A program made the position numbers and the translations under genes. A stretch of 37,535 nucleotides of DNA from Silicimonas sp. (GTDB lineage Bacteria > Pseudomonadota > Alphaproteobacteria > Rhodobacterales > Rhodobacteraceae), in NCBI GenBank assembly GCA_022340315.1, contig JAJDOD010000070.1:1-37535 (forward strand), given 5' to 3'. The notes beneath the pieces are model-generated. The model saw only the letters and a list, made by a program, of their open reading frames with translations. It ran no database searches and was not told the origin of the DNA. Each line of letters begins with the position of its first letter. Positions within the stretch are counted from its first letter, which is position 1. Positions 1,060 through 9,962 of this stretch are shown here, in pieces.

Positions 1060-2097
1060 CTAGCCCGGCTCCGAGTGCGTCAGCGTGTCGGATTGCTCCC
1101 GCAGCCGATATGCCGCCTGTTCCGCCGAGAGATCCCTTTGCGGCTCGGCCAGCATCTCGTATCCGACCAGAAACTTCCTCACCGTCGCCGATCTCAGGAG
1201 CGGGGGATAGAAATGCGCATGAAGCTGCCAATGCGCAACGTCGGCTTGATGCGGAGGCGCTCCGTGCCATCCCATTGAATACGGAAACTCCGTCCCGAAC
1301 AGGTTGTCGTAGCGCGCACAAAGGCTCTTGAGGATGCCGGCAAGCGAGGCGCGCTCGGTCGCATCGAGATCGGTCAGCCGCGGCCGGTGCCGCAATGGCA
1401 TCACGAGCGTTTCAAATGGCCAGACGGCCCAAAACGGGACCACTGCGACCCAGTCCTTGTTTTGGGCGACCACGCGCGCCTCGCGATCGAGCTCTTCTTG
1501 CGCGTAGGTAACGAGCAGGTTCGATCCACTCTCACCGAGATAGTCCCTCTGCGAACGATCCTCGCGCTCGACCTCGCTCGGGACGAAATCCGACGCCCAG
1601 ATCTGCCCATGAGGATGCGGGTTGGAACACCCCATCATGGCGCCCTTGTTCTCGAAAATGGCGACCCAGGCGTAGTCGCGCGCCAACTCTTCGTATTGCT
1701 CGATCCAGACGTCGATGACGCTGCGGACAGCCGTTTCCGGCAATGCCGGGAGCGTCAGATCGTGGCGCTCGGAGAAACATATGACCCGCGAAGTGCCGCG
1801 CGCGGTCTGCGCCTGGAAAAGTGGCGAGTCCGCAACTGCATCTGCGGGCGTGTCCTTCAAAAGCGCGGGGAAGTCGTTCTCGAACACAAAGGGCCCCGTA
1901 TAGTCCGGGTTGGCAGAGCCGTTTGCGCGCCTGTTGCCCGCGCAGAGATAGCAGTTCGGATCGTGCCGAGGGCGATCGTTCGGCAAGGGGTCTTCGGATT
2001 GCCCCTGCCACGGGCGCCGGTTCCGGTGCGGAGACACCAGAACCCATTCACGCCTCAGAGGGTTGTAGCGCCGATGCGGGTGTTCCTCGAAGTTCAT
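1060..2097 (-). CDS. galT: Galactose-1-phosphate uridylyltransferase
   Basis: A 345-residue protein, the normal length for class I GalT. It exchanges UMP between UDP-glucose and a hexose 1-phosphate through a uridylyl-histidine intermediate. The zinc pair is visible as CYLC (C49, C52) and the catalytic loop as [14 protein letters not shown] (about residues 157-170), with the H-P-H nucleophile motif and Gln165. Later motifs [11 protein letters not shown] and LHAHFYPP are also present. It is the last gene of the operon that starts with the deoR gene, 47 bp after the IMPase gene. No galK or galE occurs in the cluster, so its hexose 1-phosphate may come from the phosphodiesterase step rather than from a kinase. 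A related sugar-1-phosphate is possible as substrate. Confidence 0.93.
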
Positions 2098-2144
2098 TCT
2101 GTTTGTCTTTCCCGTCTCGACCCGGCCGCGTGCCCGTAATCGTC

Positions 2145-2978
2145 TCAGGGCAAAGCCGCCGCCAAATTCGCGATATCCCGGCCCATCGCCTCGGACCGGG
2201 CTGCGACGATCCTGCCGTCCGAATGGGTTGGGGAATTGGGGTGTTTGCCGTCAACCGCAGCCCGTCCGCCGCCTTCTTCGAGAAGCAGCAGGCCGACCGC
2301 ATGGTCCCAGGGCTTCAGTGTGAAGGAGCGGAGGAAATCGACATACCCGGAAGCGAGAAGGCGGTATTCGTGGCATGAACACCGTATATCCCGAATATGG
2401 AACACGGCATCGAACCCTTCCCGGACGATTTTTCGTGTCTCTGTTTCGTAGTCATCGAGCGTCACGAACCCCCGGGCCTCGCCCAGTGCGCGGGTCACTG
2501 CGCGCAGTCGGATCTGCGATTGGGCTCCGTTACGGCTGCGAAACCAGGCGCCACCTCCGAAAATTGCGAACATCCAATCGTCCAAAACGGGATCGTGCAA
2601 CAGCCCGAACACCGTTTGCCCCTCGTGCTCCACCGCGAGGATGGATCCGAAAACGGCCAGGCCGGCGACGAAATTTCCAGTGCCGTCAATAGGTTCTACA
2701 ATTACACAGGTTTGACGGGTACCGATGGAGTCAAGAAGGCGGGGGTCGTCGGCGACGGCCTCTTCGCCAATCACGGCGGCGCCCGGAAGCACCTGCTCGA
2801 CGCCTTTTCGTATTGCCTCCTCTGCCGTACGGTCTGCGACGGTGACAACGTCCATCGGGCCTGATTTCGTCGCTATGTCATCGGCTGCGAGATTGCGGAA
2901 CCGCGGCATGATCACCTCGGCCCCGGCGCGCCGCACCACGTTGGTCAACTCTTCGATTTCCTGCCCCGTCGGGATCAC
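2145..2978 (-). CDS. Inositol monophosphatase-family phosphatase with altered metal motif
   Basis: A 277-residue IMPase-fold protein. Metal motifs are GEE (71-73), EPIDGTGNF (95-103) and PWDHAVG (about 223-229). In most of the family the second motif is DP(I/L)DGT, with the first Asp coordinating metal. Here it is Glu95, read directly from the codons, while Asp98 and Asp225 are kept. Family members dephosphorylate inositol phosphates, sugar phosphates, histidinol phosphate or PAP. The start overlaps the stop of the phosphodiesterase gene by 4 bp, so the two are translationally coupled and probably act in sequence. It differs clearly from the second IMPase in this window (SuhB at 24217). Substrate unknown. 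Confidence 0.85.
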
Positions 2979-3763
2979 CTGGCCAACCCGCGCACGCGCT
3001 GGGGCGTCACGAGGTGGCGGCCTCCGGGTCCGAAGTCGTGCAAGTAGTAGAAATCCTGGAGCATTGTCGGGCGGATCGGGTGATCTCCGAAGGGCAGAGC
3101 GGAATCATACGGCGCAACCATGCTCCCGGCCACATAGCAGTCGATATTGTGCTCCGACGCGAAAAAGGGCCGGTGGACATGGCCCGACAGGATCTTGATG
3201 GTCATGCCTGAGCCGCGAAGGATATCCATCAAACGCTCGTGCCCTTTCAGCCGGCAGAAGCCATCGAATTTGTCGAGGCCCAGAAGAAGTGGGGGGTGGT
3301 GCATTACGATCAGAAGCGAACCTTCGCCGCCATCGCGGGCGACTTCTTCGGCAACCAGCGCCAGGCCTTCCTCGTCGAGCTCGCCTTCGACCGCACCCTC
3401 GATGCATGTGTCCAGGCCGAGGCAGCGCATGCCGCCGAACTCCTTGACCCGGTTAGTGATGTTCCAGTCGGCAAAAACCTCGGAAGACGCCGTATAGGCG
3501 CGCATCCCCGCTGGCCCGTCGTGATTGCCGGGAACGATGACGACCGGCAGGCCGATTTCGCTGAACATCCGCTCGAAGTCGGCAAATGCCGCCGCGTCGG
3601 CGCGTTCGGTCAAGTCGCCCGAAACAATGACCAGATCGACTGCCTCGGAGATGCCGGCCAGATCGCGGGCGACCGCTTCTGCGACCTCGGCAGCGGGCCG
3701 TCCTCCACCGGGTGCGATTTCGCGCATTCCAAGATGCAGGTCTGACACATGGGCCAGCCTCAT
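2975..3763 (-). CDS. Calcineurin-like metallophosphoesterase (GpdQ/CpdA-type phosphodiesterase)
   Basis: A 262-residue binuclear metallophosphoesterase. All five motif blocks are present: D8-L-H10, GD at 49-50, GNHD at 79-82, MHH near 154-156 and GHVH at 194-197. The layout matches class III cyclic nucleotide phosphodiesterases and glycerophosphodiesterases of the GpdQ type. No signal peptide is seen, so it should act in the cytoplasm on imported substrate. It sits directly after the two permease genes and overlaps the IMPase gene by 4 bp. By context, a phosphodiester brought in by the Ugp-type importer is the likely substrate, but cAMP or another diester cannot be excluded. Confidence 0.87.
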   Translation of the reverse strand: MRLAHVSDLHLGMREIAPGGGRPAAEVAEAVARDLAGISEAVDLVIVSGDLTERADAAAFADFERMFSEIGLPVVIVPGNHDGPAGMRAYTASSEVFADWNITNRVKEFGGMRCLGLDTCIEGAVEGELDEEGLALVAEEVARDGGEGSLLIVMHHPPLLLGLDKFDGFCRLKGHERLMDILRGSGMTIKILSGHVHRPFFASEHNIDCYVAGSMVAPYDSALPFGDHPIRPTMLQDFYYLHDFGPGGRHLVTPQRVRGLAR

Positions 3764-3806
3764 AGCAGGCTCCCGGACAAGTGGCGCCTTGTGACCGACC
3801 CTCGCA

Positions 3807-4619
3807 TTACTTGATCCCCGCTCGCATGAAGTTGGCGACGAACTGCCGCTGGAAGATGAGGAAAGCGATTATCAGCGGTGCCGTCGTCATCAGCGTCGCC
3901 GCGTTGACCAGCGACCATTCGATCCCGCTTTCCACGGTTGCGAAGACGCTGAGACCGACGGTCACAGGCCGCACTTCGGGCGAGTTCGTGACGATCAGCG
4001 GCCACAGGAAGTTGTTCCAGTGAAAGCTGATCGAAACCAGTCCATAGGCCAGGTACACCGGCCGCGCGAGCGGCACGTAGACGGTCCAAAGAATGCGCCA
4101 GGCGCCGGCGCCCTCCATCTGTGCCGCCTCGTCCAACGACTTTGGCACGGTCAGGAATGTCTGCCGCAGCAGGAAGATCCCGAACGCCGAAGTCAGATAG
4201 GGCAGGGCGATGCCGATGATCGTGTCGGTCAAACCGATTGTCGACAGCGTCAGATAGTTCTCGACGATGAGGATCTCGGGGGAAATCAGCAACTGCACCA
4301 TGACGAGGCTGAACAGAAACCCGGCCCAGCGGAACCGGTAGCGAACGAATGCATAGGCAACCAGCGTGCAAAGGATCAGGTTCGCAACCAGCACGGTGAC
4401 GATCAGAATGACGGTATTCAGGAAATAGAGCGCGAAAGGCGCGGCCTGCCACGCCTCTGTAAAGTTTGAGAGCGTCAAGGGTGCGTTCCAAACGAAGTTG
4501 GCCGAATATTTTTCCGGGTGGAACGCGGTCCAGACCGAATACAGGAACGGCAATCCCCAAACCGCCGCCAACACGAAAGCTACCGTCGCAAATGCGATCC
4601 TGTTCAGACCATCGCTCAT
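3807..4619 (-). CDS. ABC transporter permease, MalG/UgpE type
   Basis: A 270-residue inner-membrane protein with six predicted hydrophobic segments. The first is at about residues 8-28 (IAFATVAFVLAAVWGLPFLYSVW), after which the protein runs YSANFVWNAPLTLSNFTEAW. The EAA loop that docks the ATPase is visible as SLDEAAQMEGAGAWRILWTVYVPLARP. It is the second permease of a carbohydrate/glycerol-3-phosphate-type importer. Its ATG overlaps the TGA of the first permease by 4 bp, and the metallophosphoesterase gene starts 43 bp downstream. UgpE is the closest role by context. The symbol is withheld because substrate specificity is not shown. Confidence 0.9.
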   Translation of the reverse strand: MSDGLNRIAFATVAFVLAAVWGLPFLYSVWTAFHPEKYSANFVWNAPLTLSNFTEAWQAAPFALYFLNTVILIVTVLVANLILCTLVAYAFVRYRFRWAGFLFSLVMVQLLISPEILIVENYLTLSTIGLTDTIIGIALPYLTSAFGIFLLRQTFLTVPKSLDEAAQMEGAGAWRILWTVYVPLARPVYLAYGLVSISFHWNNFLWPLIVTNSPEVRPVTVGLSVFATVESGIEWSLVNAATLMTTAPLIIAFLIFQRQFVANFMRAGIK

Positions 4620-5491
4620 TGATAGTGCGCCTTTCTGTTAAGGACCCAGAACTGAATGGCCGCCATGAAACCGAGGATGACCACCATCAGCACCGTGAGG
4701 GTTGCGCCATAGGCGAAGTCGCGGAACCCGAAGGTCACCTCGTAGATGTAGTAAAGCAGAAGCGAGCTTGAATTGTTCGGCCCGCCGCGCGTCATGACCA
4801 CGATATGATCGACCAGGCGGAAGGCGTTGATAAGCGCGTTGACCGCAACGAAGATCGTCGTCGGTCGGAGAAGCGGCATCACCACATCGAAGAAGATGCG
4901 CACCGAACCGGCACCTTCCAGCCGGGCCGCATCCTTCAGGTTCGTCGGAATCGACTGGAGTGCGGCAAGATAGAAGATCATGAAAAGGCCCGCCTCTTTC
5001 CAGACCGCCACGACCATCATGGAAACGAGCGAGGTATCCGTGCTGCCGAGAAAGTTTATGGATGGCAGGCCGAAAGCATTGAGGATCTGCGAGGCCAGGC
5101 CGATTCCGGGGGCGTAGAAGAAAAGCCAGATATTGGCGACAGCCACCATCGGCAGCATCGTCGGCAGGAAAAACGACAGGCGCATCAATCCGGTTGCGGG
5201 CAGCCTCGAGTTGACCAGAAGCGCCATGCCGATCGCCAGCGCAATGGCCAGGGGGACCGTTCCGATGGCGTAGATGAAGCTGTTGCTCAAAACCTGCATC
5301 AGCTTGTCGTCTTCGAGAAGCGCCTCGTAGTTTCGCGCACCGACGAAACGTGACGGCCGTATCGAGCTTCCGTTGTTCCAGAAGGAATTCAGTAGCGCCT
5401 TGAACGCCGGGTAGTGCGTGAATGCCACCAGGAGCGAGCAGGGCACGAAAAGCAGGATGAACCCCATTCCGTATGACAACCGCATATTCAT
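4616..5491 (-). CDS. ABC transporter permease, MalF/UgpA type
   Basis: A 291-residue inner-membrane protein with six hydrophobic segments. The first is FILLFVPCSLLVAFTHYPAF, followed by the periplasmic YEALLEDDKLMQVLSNSFIYAIGTVPLAIALAI region. The EAA loop reads NLKDAARLEGAGSVRIFFDVVMPLLRP. It pairs with the downstream permease to form the transmembrane channel. It follows the binding-protein gene after a 78-bp spacer that holds a strong hairpin (5528-5552), so it is probably expressed at a lower level than the binding protein. No strong Shine-Dalgarno sequence is visible before ATG 5491. A second Met two codons later is an alternative start. Confidence 0.9.
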   Translation of the reverse strand: MNMRLSYGMGFILLFVPCSLLVAFTHYPAFKALLNSFWNNGSSIRPSRFVGARNYEALLEDDKLMQVLSNSFIYAIGTVPLAIALAIGMALLVNSRLPATGLMRLSFFLPTMLPMVAVANIWLFFYAPGIGLASQILNAFGLPSINFLGSTDTSLVSMMVVAVWKEAGLFMIFYLAALQSIPTNLKDAARLEGAGSVRIFFDVVMPLLRPTTIFVAVNALINAFRLVDHIVVMTRGGPNNSSSLLLYYIYEVTFGFRDFAYGATLTVLMVVILGFMAAIQFWVLNRKAHYQ

Positions 5492-5527
5492 ATGTCAGAT
5501 CACTCGCATCCGCTGGCTTGATTGCCC

Positions 5528-5552
5528 GCGCGCCACGAGAGGCGTGGCGCGC
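5528..5552 (-). promoter_or_regulatory. Intercistronic hairpin after the binding-protein gene
   Basis: Perfect 10-bp inverted repeat GCGCGCCACG / CGTGGCGCGC with a 5-nt loop, beginning 17 nt after the stop of the solute-binding-protein gene. There is no T-tract behind it on the minus strand, so it is not a typical intrinsic terminator. Hairpins at this place in binding-protein operons commonly protect the upstream message from 3' exonucleases or partly end transcription, giving excess binding protein over permease. The repeat is seen directly. The role is inferred. Confidence 0.75.
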
Positions 5553-5569
5553 AGGTGACGCATCGTGCC

Positions 5570-6856
5570 TCAGCGATACTCGCCGAGAACCTCGTCCGCC
5601 TTTTCCTGGGCCTCCGCCAGGGCGGTCGCTGCATCGGTCCCGCCCGTGATGACACCCTCGATCGCATCGACAAGATACTGGGTTACACGCGCACGCTGGA
5701 ACGTCGCGAACTCGCGATAGGCATGCGGCATCTGTTCAAGCGCCACGAGTGCCTGCGGCAGACGCTCCGAATAGGCCTGCATCTCCGGCGTTTCCCAGGC
5801 AGCCTGGCTGGGAGCGATATAGCCGGTGGCCATGCTCCAGATCGCCTGGTTCTCGGGTGTCGTCATGAAGCGAACGAAATCCAGCGCCGCATCGCGTTCT
5901 TCGTCGGTGATGTCCTTGAAGATGTAGAAGTTGCCTCCGCCGACAGGCGCTCCGGGTCCGTCCCCGCCGGGAAGGAAGCCAACGCCCCAGTCGAACTCGG
6001 CATTCTCGTTGATGAAGGCGAGGTTCCCCGTGGACGTCCAGATCGAGGCCGCCTGACCTTCAAGGAAGGCTTTTGGCGTATCGCCCCAGGTGATGCCGCC
6101 CGGTGCCATGACCTCTTCATCGGCCAGACGTTGCAGGAATTCGAGCGATGCCTTGGCGGCTTCAGTGTTGAAACGCGCCTCGGTTCCGGTGTCGGTGGAA
6201 AGTCCGTCACCCTTCGACTTCACGAGACCGCCGAACAACCAGGCACCGGCAAGGCCCAGGTTCGGAATGCGTGTGCCCCATTGCGTCACGTTGCCATTGC
6301 TGTCCTTGACGGTCAGCTTCTTGCCCATCTCAACCATTTCGTCCCAGGTCGCGGGCGTAACCTCTGGGTCAAGCCCGGCGGCGCGAAACGCATCCTTGTT
6401 GTAATAGAAAACAGGGGTCGAGCGCTGGAAGGGGATCGAATATACCTTCCCGTCAAACATCGTGTCGACCATGAAACCATCGTAGAAGCTGTCGATCCAC
6501 GCCTTGTCCGCGTCCGAGGTCGCGATGTCCGAGATCGGCAGGATCACGTCCTCTTCGATTAGCGTGAAGATGTCGATGGCCAGCAGCACCGCCACCTGAG
6601 GAGGGTCGCCCGCCTGCGCCGCCGTCAGAGCCTTGGTTGTGGTTTCCTCGTAGTTGCCGGCATAGACCGCCTTCACCGAATGCTGCGGGTTCTGTGCGGC
6701 CCAGGCATTGGTCAGTTGCTCGATCGTGGCCACGGCAGGCGCGTTGACGCCAACCGGAAAATAGAACTCAAGATCGGCGGCTTGGGCCATTGAAGCGGAG
6801 CATGCTATTGCCGCACTCATGACCAGCGGCAGGGCGGTTCTCATTCTTGCATTCAT
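5570..6856 (-). CDS. UgpB-like extracellular solute-binding protein
   Basis: A 428-residue periplasmic binding protein. The signal peptide is clear: positively charged MNARMR, a hydrophobic core, and a likely cleavage after AQA (about residue 26), giving a mature start near ADLEFYFP. The segment IPFQRSTPVFYYNKDAFRAAGLDPE resembles the glycerol-3-phosphate binding protein UgpB, as I recall its sequence. Length also fits the family 1 extracellular solute-binding proteins. The start is supported by a strong GGAGGAAAAGAC-ATG ribosome binding site. Together with the ATPase and two permeases it completes one importer. UgpB likeness points to a glycerophosphodiester or sugar phosphodiester rather than a plain sugar, as inference. 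Confidence 0.9.
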   Translation of the reverse strand: MNARMRTALPLVMSAAIACSASMAQAADLEFYFPVGVNAPAVATIEQLTNAWAAQNPQHSVKAVYAGNYEETTTKALTAAQAGDPPQVAVLLAIDIFTLIEEDVILPISDIATSDADKAWIDSFYDGFMVDTMFDGKVYSIPFQRSTPVFYYNKDAFRAAGLDPEVTPATWDEMVEMGKKLTVKDSNGNVTQWGTRIPNLGLAGAWLFGGLVKSKGDGLSTDTGTEARFNTEAAKASLEFLQRLADEEVMAPGGITWGDTPKAFLEGQAASIWTSTGNLAFINENAEFDWGVGFLPGGDGPGAPVGGGNFYIFKDITDEERDAALDFVRFMTTPENQAIWSMATGYIAPSQAAWETPEMQAYSERLPQALVALEQMPHAYREFATFQRARVTQYLVDAIEGVITGGTDAATALAEAQEKADEVLGEYR

Positions 6857-6906
6857 GTCTTTTCCTCCATGTTGCCGCCGAAGTCGGCGGTATTTCGTGT
6901 GTCGGT

Positions 6907-7971
6907 CTAAAGGGCGAAATCCATTGAAGCCCCATCCGACTTGTCAAAGAGATGTGTGGCCGCGTCAGGCCAGTTGGCAGTGACCTCGGACCCTTCCTCC
7001 GGCACGCCGTCCCCCGAATGCGCGACCACAAATCGGGTCCCCGACGGCGTGATGAGATGCACGAGGAAGACCTTGCCTTCGTATTCGAGACTTTCCACGC
7101 GCGCATTGACCGAAAACCCGGCGTCTCCCGCATCCAGCCCCAGGCTTTCCGGCCGAACACCGAACAGCACGTCGGACTTTCCGGCACCATTTGCGGGCGC
7201 CAGCGTTGCCGGTGCCTGAACATCCTGCGCCTGCAACAGGTTCATGGGCGGCGTACCGATGAACCCCGCGGCAAAGGTATTGGCGGGCCTGTCGTACAGT
7301 TCCTTCGGCGTACCCACCTGGCTGACTTCACCGGCATTCATCAGAACGACCTTGTCGGACATCGACAAAGCTTCGCTTTGGTCATGGGTGACGTAGACCA
7401 CTGTAATGCCGAGCTTTTTGTTCAGGGAGCGGATTTCGCTTCGGATCTCGACACGCAGTTTCGCATCAAGGTTCGAGAGCGGCTCATCCATCAGGACAAG
7501 CGGACGGTCGGAAACCAGAACACGGGCCAGCGCAACCCGCTGCTGCTGGCCGCCGGAAAGCTGCGCCGGCTTCCGGTCCAGCAGCTTGCCGAGTGCCATC
7601 AGTTCCGCCACCCGAGCCATGGCCTTTTCCTTCTCGGCCTTCGGAACCTTTCTGACCTTGAGGCCGTACGAGATGTTCTCGGCGATCGTCATGTGCGGAA
7701 ACAGCGCGTAGTTCTGGAACACCATCCCGATGTTCCGCTCGGCTGCCGGGGTCCGGGCAACGTCCTTGCCGCCGATCAGAATCTGTCCGCCGCTCACCTC
7801 GTCGAGACCGGACACCAGCCGCAGTATTGTGCTTTTGCCGCAGCCCGAAGGTCCGAGCAGCGTCAGGAACCCGCCCGGTTCGATCGAGAAGTTGACGTCC
7901 CTCAGGACCTCCACGGCGCCCCAGCTCTTGGCGAGGCTCGCGACCTCGAGCGATACACCCGCGGCGCTCAT
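6907..7971 (-). CDS. ABC transporter ATPase, UgpC/MalK type
   Basis: A 354-residue ATPase. It shows Walker A GPSGCGKST (near residue 38-46), Q-loop FQNYALFPH, signature LSGGQQQR, Walker B VLMDEP and the switch histidine in VTHDQSEA. The C-terminal third is the OB-like regulatory domain typical of MalK/UgpC (VLFGVRPESLGL ... VARVESLEYEGKVFLVHL-type segments). Its ATG overlaps the regulator stop by 4 bp. It energises the importer encoded downstream. The C-terminal domain could bind a regulatory partner, as in MalK and UgpC, but nothing in the sequence proves that. Confidence 0.94.
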   Translation of the reverse strand: MSAAGVSLEVASLAKSWGAVEVLRDVNFSIEPGGFLTLLGPSGCGKSTILRLVSGLDEVSGGQILIGGKDVARTPAAERNIGMVFQNYALFPHMTIAENISYGLKVRKVPKAEKEKAMARVAELMALGKLLDRKPAQLSGGQQQRVALARVLVSDRPLVLMDEPLSNLDAKLRVEIRSEIRSLNKKLGITVVYVTHDQSEALSMSDKVVLMNAGEVSQVGTPKELYDRPANTFAAGFIGTPPMNLLQAQDVQAPATLAPANGAGKSDVLFGVRPESLGLDAGDAGFSVNARVESLEYEGKVFLVHLITPSGTRFVVAHSGDGVPEEGSEVTANWPDAATHLFDKSDGASMDFAL

Positions 7972-8744
7972 GCCAGCACCACGGAGATATCGGCGTTCTC
8001 CAGTTGCGTGCGGCTGGCGTGGTCAATCCCCTTGTCGGTGACCAGACAATCTATGCTGTCGAAGGAGGCCGTCCGGATAAAGCCTGCCGCTTGCAGCTTC
8101 TCGTGGTGGGCAACGACGAAGTTCCGGCGCGACGCAGCAACGACCTCTGCTTGAATCTGACTATAGCCCTCGTCTCCGATCGAGATTGATTTCCGGGTAA
8201 GGTCGATCGAGGAGCAGCAGAGAAACGATATGTCGAAAGACAATGTCCGGATTGACGAGATGGCAAGGTGACCGCCGAACGAGTCGTTCACACCGATATA
8301 GGCGCCGCCGATCAGATAAAAGTTCGATATTCCCTGGTCGCGCAACCGCGATGCAATCCTCAGGCAGGTCGTGACGTAGCGGCATCCAGGCTTGAGATGG
8401 GCGTATTCGGCAACTGCAAGGGCGGTGGTGCCGGCATCGAGGAACACGGTCTCGTCGTTACCCAGAAGTTCGATCGCTGCCCGCCCAATTCTACGTTTCT
8501 CTTCCGAGTGGATCAGAATCCGCTCTTCATTTGGAAGATCCACGAAGGCACTTGCGTTGTTCAGTACGCCCCCGTGGGTGCGCGTCACCACGCCGGTCTC
8601 GCCAAGTTCCCGCAAGTCTCGGCGAATGGTCGCTTCCGACACGCCCAATTCCCTGGAGAGATCTCCGACCGCAACGGAGCCACGCCCTTCAACCAGATCC
8701 ACGATCTTGCGGCGGCGCGCTGCGCCAAGTCGAACGCTGTCCAT
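7968..8744 (-). CDS. DeoR-family transcriptional regulator
   Basis: A 258-residue regulator and first gene of the operon. The N-terminal winged helix-turn-helix is visible at residues about 10-60 (RRRKIVDLVEGRGSVAVGDLSRELGVSEATIRRDLREL, then TRTHGG). The C-terminal part is the sugar-phosphate sensor domain with IGRAAIELL, DAGTTALAVAEY and VTTCLRIASRL segments. DeoR-family proteins usually bind a phosphorylated sugar that releases them from DNA, which fits a pathway producing sugar phosphates. A GTG at 8745-8747 directly precedes the chosen ATG, so either may start translation. Neither has a good Shine-Dalgarno sequence. Palindromic and repeated motifs upstream suggest autoregulation. Confidence 0.92.
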   Translation of the reverse strand: MDSVRLGAARRRKIVDLVEGRGSVAVGDLSRELGVSEATIRRDLRELGETGVVTRTHGGVLNNASAFVDLPNEERILIHSEEKRRIGRAAIELLGNDETVFLDAGTTALAVAEYAHLKPGCRYVTTCLRIASRLRDQGISNFYLIGGAYIGVNDSFGGHLAISSIRTLSFDISFLCCSSIDLTRKSISIGDEGYSQIQAEVVAASRRNFVVAHHEKLQAAGFIRTASFDSIDCLVTDKGIDHASRTQLENADISVVLA

Positions 8745-8745
8745 C

Positions 8746-8836
8746 ACTGCGCAATACTGATCGCTAGTGAGCGCATTTCGAATACATCCCTCCCCAAATG
8801 AGCAAAATCAGTCGTAACTGCGCAATTTCGCGCAGT
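8746..8836 (-). promoter_or_regulatory. Candidate DeoR-type operator region
   Basis: A perfect inverted repeat ACTGCGC-6-GCGCAGT lies at 8817-8836, about 70 bp upstream of the regulator start. The half-site ACTGCGCAAT recurs in the same orientation at 8746-8755, abutting the start codon. GCGCATTTCG (8771-8780) and GCGCAATTTCG (8820-8830) share a TTTCG core like that reported for several DeoR-family operators. Three related sites across 90 bp suit cooperative autoregulation of the operon. The repeats are visible. Binding is inferred. Confidence 0.55.
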
Positions 8837-9887: not shown

Positions 9888-9962
9888 TGGCAGCCCGTAG
9901 GGGAATCGAACCCCTCTTTCCAGGTTGAAAACCTGGCGTCCTAACCGATAGACGAACGGGCC
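9888..9962 (-). tRNA. tRNA-Glu (anticodon UUC)
   Basis: A 75-nt cloverleaf on the minus strand with CCA encoded. The acceptor arms GGCCCGT / ACGGGCT pair with a G-U at position 1-72. The anticodon stem is CCAGG/CCTGG around TT-TTC-AA, giving anticodon UUC. The T-arm is GGGG-TTCGATT-CCCC and the D-loop carries CGGTTAGGA. Discriminator base is G. It lies 64 bp downstream of recJ on the same strand but has its own promoter-like sequence. Confidence 0.97.

Follow-up and report, generated by a model that had tools for sequence, protein, structure and literature searches.

The window analyzed here, a 37,535-nucleotide stretch from a Silicimonas sp. genome (assembly GCA_022340315.1, contig JAJDOD010000070.1), carries on its minus strand, at 1060–8747, an operon that joins an ABC importer resembling the Ugp system to a phosphodiesterase (PDE), an inositol-monophosphatase-family phosphatase (IMPase) and the uridylyltransferase GalT. 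All eight genes are present and intact, their order of transcription being deoR, ugpC, ugpB, ugpA, ugpE, PDE, IMPase and galT. Neighbors overlap by 4 bp at three junctions (deoR/ugpC, ugpA/ugpE and PDE/IMPase), in agreement with an earlier note on this DNA, which had described eight genes on one strand with several such overlaps.

The first gene, deoR (7968–8747, PF00455 and PF08220), codes for a DeoR/GlpR-family regulator whose top NCBIfam match, GlpR_Halo, reaches 174 bits, below the cut-off of 300. Its GTG start places the end of the operon at 8747; an ATG one codon on gives 8744, and the previously proposed extent of 1060–8744 holds for that start. The importer genes follow, encoding a UgpC-like ATPase (6907–7971, PF00005 and PF08402), a UgpB-like binding protein (5570–6856), and UgpA-like (4616–5491, PF00528) and UgpE-like (3807–4619) permeases. 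Next are the genes for a cytoplasmic calcineurin-like PDE of the GpdQ/Rv0805 type (2975–3763, PF00149) and the IMPase (2145–2978, PF00459), and the last is galT (1060–2097), for a hexose-1-phosphate uridylyltransferase. The galT product passes equivalog cut-offs with 557 bits (NF008724, cut-off 448) and 521 bits, matches 1HXQ at E=1e-143, aligns with E. coli GalT over nearly its whole length, and retains an intact HPHGQ active site. These scores, together with clear Pfam matches for DeoR, the calcineurin-like PDE and IMPase, uphold the family assignments of the earlier note.

Conservation of the operon

Within a sample of 397 genomes of the family, UgpB orthologs with at least 74% identity occur in nine, followed by a clear gap down to 54%, and close PDE orthologs occur in eight (at least 184 bits; next best 104). 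The PDE gene adjoins the transporter in all nine transporter genomes, the ninth (G194) having the divergent clade II form described below; an IMPase gene accompanies it in eight (in G014 as a fragment, at the end of a contig), and galT in five. A scan of named genomes (genome_contigs), in which a single-protein PDE query gave no match and a ugpE alignment succeeded, recovered 21 orthologous loci with UgpE identities of at least 74% and up to 97%, including loci from Kangsaoukella, Jannaschia, Thetidibacter, Tropicimonas, Maliponia, Aliiruegeria, Boseongicola and one Rhizobiales genome. Counting partial genes, PDE is present in 20 of these loci and IMPase in 18; L073 lacks both, and L053 and L058 lack IMPase. 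Gene order is kept down to about 40% PDE identity, a degree of conservation that, judged from the sequences, is far beyond chance, and the idea of a chance assembly confined to the window genome is refuted by these orthologous loci. The co-occurrence of PDE and IMPase with the transporter, as envisaged in the earlier note, is thus borne out, and the transporter does not generally travel without these enzymes. The same note had placed galT in this set as well; it is not a constant member, being instead an accessory gene of the operon (five of nine genomes, none in clade II).

The loci fall into two clades. Clade I (the window with L053–L059, L062, L065 and L066) has the close form of the PDE, a single IMPase subfamily where IMPase is present, and sometimes galT; clade II (L060, L061, L063, L064 and L067–L072) has a diverged PDE, another IMPase (about 26–30% identical to that of clade I) and no galT. 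The stretches that follow the operon in two clade II loci, L061 (12623–19943) and L072 (12550–17821), share, by reading of their open reading frames (ORFs), an RpiR-like regulator, a metallo-beta-lactamase-fold protein, a shikimate-dehydrogenase-like protein and an FGGY kinase. The copy in an Albidovulum metagenome-assembled genome (L045/L055) has about 1.7 kb of extra DNA between ugpB and ugpA, including an ORF with an HNH-like stretch, and only a fragment of IMPase (56% identity), and is a decaying operon copy.

Distribution of galT and galactokinase

galT is rare, occurring in 16 of the 397 family genomes and in three of 385 genomes of a class-wide sample. In nine of the 16, the galactokinase gene galK is present (PF10509) and lies beside galT. 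In five others, namely the window genome (G000), G335, G055, G282 and G323, galT is the last gene of the PDE operon, and galactokinase is absent by two models (PF10509 and TIGR00131) whose controls were positive. The last two, G274 and G349, also lack galK; here galT is preceded by a different ABC importer and followed by a gene for a DUF1868/2H phosphodiesterase (PF08975), a family that may open a sugar phosphodiester. This galT-2H operon lies at L096:5212–7030 in G274 and at L097:1985–9573 in G349, where a Na/Pi symporter gene comes next. PF08975 was found in two of 19 genomes tested, these same two. For the binding protein of this galT-2H operon, no relative of solved structure was found at 1e-5.

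All 16 galT genes are therefore accompanied by a gene for either galactokinase or a phosphodiesterase, and two unrelated PDE families occupy the same place. The division between galK and PDE over the 16 genomes gives a Fisher p=9e-5, and the carriage of galT by five of the eight close-PDE genomes, always within the operon, gives p=3e-6, both values overstating independence because the genomes are related. That galT without galK might simply be usual in the family is rejected, as all nine galT genomes lacking an adjacent PDE have galK. G186, a sister species from the same genus as the window genome, has galT-galK and no PDE operon, and the outgroup G421 has galE-galT-galK. Within the PDE operon, galT holds the same 3′ position in five genera; the tree of operon galT sequences consists of three supported pairs on an unresolved radiation and does not decide between single and repeated acquisition. 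Because the galT genomes split between those with galK and those with an adjacent PDE, the simplest reading is that the PDE would release the hexose-1-phosphate that galactokinase normally makes.

The importer and its binding protein

The subunits of the importer are Ugp-like, yet all score below the curated Ugp cut-offs (UgpA, 121 of 335 bits with NF007852; UgpB, 158 of 411; UgpC, 379 of 432 with NF008653; UgpE, 119 of 297), so that the earlier description as Ugp-type is right and Ugp proper would be wrong. Phaeobacter UgpB binds glycerol-1-phosphate and glycerol-3-phosphate (G1P and G3P); Tyr64, Ser143, Ser266 and Tyr342 coordinate the phosphate, and the hydroxyls of the glycerol are contacted by Glu88, Gly303 and Arg393. 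The four phosphate ligands are also kept in relatives that bind glycerophosphocholine (GPC) and dinucleotides, but not in glucose-binding ones (PMC12718374). Alignment of the window protein to 9LFF, 4AQ4 and 6R1B shows the phosphate ligands kept as Y69, S146, S275 and Y346, a tetrad (Y64/S143/S266/Y342 in UgpB numbering) that is invariant in all aligned orthologs (L053–L073). Glu88 is replaced by Ala or Ser in the window protein (A93) and in all orthologs, with the same result in two alignments. The comparison with UgpB suggested by the earlier note thus finds the phosphate ligands retained and the glycerol-binding Glu gone, and because of this combination the binding protein probably takes a phosphate ester, though not in the manner of G3P. 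Identification of the system as a G3P importer was rejected on the score cut-offs and the loss of Glu88, and it is probably not one. Two further candidate changes, Trp191 to Arg and Arg393 to Thr, were dropped: the regions flanking Arg393 and the Trp188/Trp191 clamp are gapped and align ambiguously in both alignments, the second of which puts the Trp residues elsewhere.

The phosphodiesterase, the phosphatase and associated genes

Aligned with 2DXL and 2HY1, the PDE keeps the binuclear metal motif of GpdQ and Rv0805 (D-x-H, GD, GNH[DE], H and GH-x-H), its own motifs SDLH, GD, GNHD, MHHPP and GHVH all being intact. Its best NCBIfam match is SpdA (71 bits), with CpdA at 60 bits, both far under cut-off. 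No copy of this type of PDE was found in a search of plasmids.

The IMPase of the window differs from its relatives at one metal ligand. DP[IV]DGT, with the Asp in place, is kept in 15 of 15 aligned operon relatives; the window protein reads VEPIDGT, Glu standing for the first metal-binding Asp of DPIDGT, with the GEE and WD motifs kept, and the enzyme may be weakened by this change. In Kangsaoukella, the closest relative, galT follows PDE in the operon and there is no IMPase, and in both the window and the Kangsaoukella lineages galT is present and the Na/Pi gene found in other copies of the operon is missing from it. Galactose-1-phosphate is a known substrate of some IMPases. On one interpretation, the phosphatase and GalT would be alternative outlets for the same hexose-1-phosphate, the phosphatase route perhaps fading in the window/Kangsaoukella lineage.

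That Na/Pi gene, coding for a symporter with a PhoU domain, follows IMPase in eight loci of both clades (L046, L057, L059, L060, L062, L065, L066 and L067). It is related to YjbB, a characterized Na/Pi co-transporter that promotes Pi export (PMC11389368), and because of this relationship it would suit the disposal of Pi released in the cytoplasm. The window genome has a 58% homolog on another contig (C122).

IMPases of the window type also occur in plasmid modules of Thioclava, Alloyangia pacifica and Rhizobium etli (L100, L101 and L102), which are ordered ROK-SBP-permease-permease-ugpC-DUF1868-IMPase. Their IMPases are 46–52% identical to that of the window, versus 24–30% to a clade II IMPase. 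A single IMPase subfamily thus accompanies PDEs of two unrelated families and two importers distant from each other, in support of a role for it in phosphodiester salvage. The Thioclava module adds a GDPD gene and that of Alloyangia a PhoX phosphatase gene.

A proposed pathway and its alternatives

From the gene set, its conservation, the intact motifs and the absence of galactokinase, all read from sequence, we infer a substrate and a series of steps. On balance we favor, by a narrow preference, an operon for import and intracellular cleavage of a hexose-1-phosphate phosphodiester, the likeliest being galactose-1-phosphate linked to glycerol or another small alcohol. The UgpB-like protein would bind the phosphate-containing substrate and UgpACE would import it, and the metallo-phosphodiesterase would cut it in the cytoplasm to the alcohol and hexose-1-phosphate. 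GalT would then convert hexose-1-phosphate and UDP-glucose to UDP-galactose and glucose-1-phosphate with no need of galactokinase; in most relatives, the IMPase would provide a parallel route from monophosphate to alcohol and Pi, and the Na/Pi symporter might export the surplus Pi. The presence of GalT points to galactose-1-phosphate. For glycerol as its partner there are weak hints: the regulator is GlpR-like, and in L046 the operon has glpK and a putative glycerol-transport gene as neighbors. The flow sketched in the earlier note, from import of a diester such as glycerophospho-galactose through cleavage to dephosphorylation of one product and uridylylation of the other, is supported in outline, its passage of hexose-1-phosphate to GalT being strengthened by the absence of galK; glycerophospho-galactose is one candidate among others that include further galactosyl phosphodiesters and a cyclic phosphate.

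Several points weigh against this proposal. The PDE family is promiscuous, so the substrate is not readable from sequence, and no published biochemistry was found for any of these operon proteins. galT is missing from clade II and from the close relatives L056, L062 and L066, and may for that reason be an add-on. The absence of galK is less firm in the window genome, whose assembly is 86% complete (210 contigs), the other six galK-less genomes being at least 99% complete, and the relatedness of the 16 galT genomes tempers the Fisher values. Finally, two of the five galT-operon genomes, G335 and that of the window, yielded no canonical galE above cut-off, their matches being weaker short-chain dehydrogenases/reductases only.

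The most serious alternative, which we nevertheless consider unlikely, is that the importer-PDE-IMPase core serves general glycerophosphodiesters (glycerophospho-inositol, -glycerol or -choline), with galT as an accessory gene supplying UDP-galactose for the cell surface, unrelated to the substrate. The lack of galT in clade II and several clade I loci would fit such a division, as would the suitability of inositol-1-phosphate for an IMPase, the binding of G3P/G1P or GPC by the nearest structural homologs, and the glycerol kinase gene that lies beyond galT on the opposite strand in L046. An unrelated function of galT is hard to square, however, with its constant 3′ position in five genera, with the mutual exclusion of the galT-PDE operon and galK over 16 genomes, and with the unrelated PDE that adjoins galT in two more genomes; the glycerol-binding Glu of UgpB, moreover, is gone from all orthologs.

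That the substrate is instead a cyclic sugar phosphate, e.g. galactose-1,2-cyclic phosphate, which arises from the breakdown of UDP-galactose and would be opened by the PDE to galactose-1-phosphate, appears improbable. Both types of galT-adjacent PDE come from groups some members of which act on cyclic phosphodiesters: the best NCBIfam match of the PDE, SpdA, is a 2′,3′-cNMP phosphodiesterase, and cyclic nucleotides are bound or cleaved by 2H enzymes. For CUT1 binding proteins of the UgpB branch, however, the ligands shown are acyclic phosphomonoesters and diesters, and hexose cyclic phosphates are not known to form a natural pool outside cells. Slightly less probable still is that the operon serves an ordinary importer of sugars or sugar phosphates, with galT handling imported galactose and the PDE acting in signaling as a cyclic-nucleotide phosphodiesterase. 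A DeoR-type regulator and the CpdA and SpdA matches, for all their distance from cut-off, would suit such an operon, but imported galactose cannot reach GalT because galK is absent, and neither the invariant phosphate ligands of the binding protein nor the recurrence of IMPase and the Na/Pi symporter would be expected.

Returning to the hexose-1-phosphate phosphodiester, the evidence seems to us evenly balanced on a broader claim, that of a pathway that recurs and has been assembled independently, in which a metallo or a 2H PDE cuts an imported phosphodiester to supply GalT with galactose-1-phosphate, in place of galactokinase as the point of entry into the Leloir pathway. Should this hold, marine and soil alphaproteobacteria would use sugar phosphodiesters, with glycolipids, teichoic-type polymers and phosphate-bridged glycans as possible sources, for both carbon and phosphorus, and galactose would enter central metabolism already phosphorylated. 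A testable class of substrate would be at hand for a well-conserved transporter automatically annotated as 'glycerol-3-phosphate', and a role suggested for a DUF1868 (2H) family. As a genomic rule, the exclusion between galK and PDE is simple and open to checking by others.

Genomic setting

Downstream of the operon lies a convergent CBS-domain-like gene (593–1033). Upstream, after about 1.1 kb, come a tRNA-Glu gene (9888–9962), recJ and glpX, the tRNA gene between the operon and recJ being a possible insertion point. The window genome also carries a paralogous PDE-ugpE-A-B-C set on contig C123 (47–5427; L009), with a divergent HAD-IIA phosphatase gene nearby and a binding protein that likewise has the phosphate tetrad.

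Comparison with known systems

No description of the window gene set was found in the literature, subscription papers lying outside the search, consistent with the earlier note, which knew of no described pathway with this set. The nearest parallel is the one drawn there, the agrocinopine (acc) operon of Agrobacterium, which combines an ABC importer for a sugar phosphodiester, the cytoplasmic phosphodiesterase AccF, the phosphatase AccG and the repressor AccR, which responds to the PDE product (PMC4526662). The two operons share this plan of importer, cytoplasmic PDE, sugar-phosphate phosphatase and repressor, a likeness of architecture alone, and differ in galT, which has not been reported as one of the acc genes. 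The acc importer is Opp-like, and AccF is not known to be a calcineurin-type PDE. The plasmid ROK-DUF1868-IMPase operons, of which no description was found, likewise pair a CUT1 importer with a phosphodiesterase and a related IMPase, but have a 2H-type PDE, a ROK regulator, a binding protein of 21–25% identity and no galT.

With UgpBAEC, the window operon has in common the CUT1 architecture and the conserved phosphate ligands; it departs from that system in its sub-threshold subunit scores, in the Ala or Ser at Glu88, and in the replacement of UgpQ by a metallo-PDE, with IMPase and galT in addition. From the Leloir pathway it has a GalT with a 557-bit match and an intact active site, but no galK was detected in the window genome, and galT shares its operon with a phosphodiesterase instead. 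What emerges is a real, conserved catabolic operon of acc-like architecture, the apparent novelty of which, supported by comparative genomics, would be the coupling of a PDE to GalT without galactokinase.

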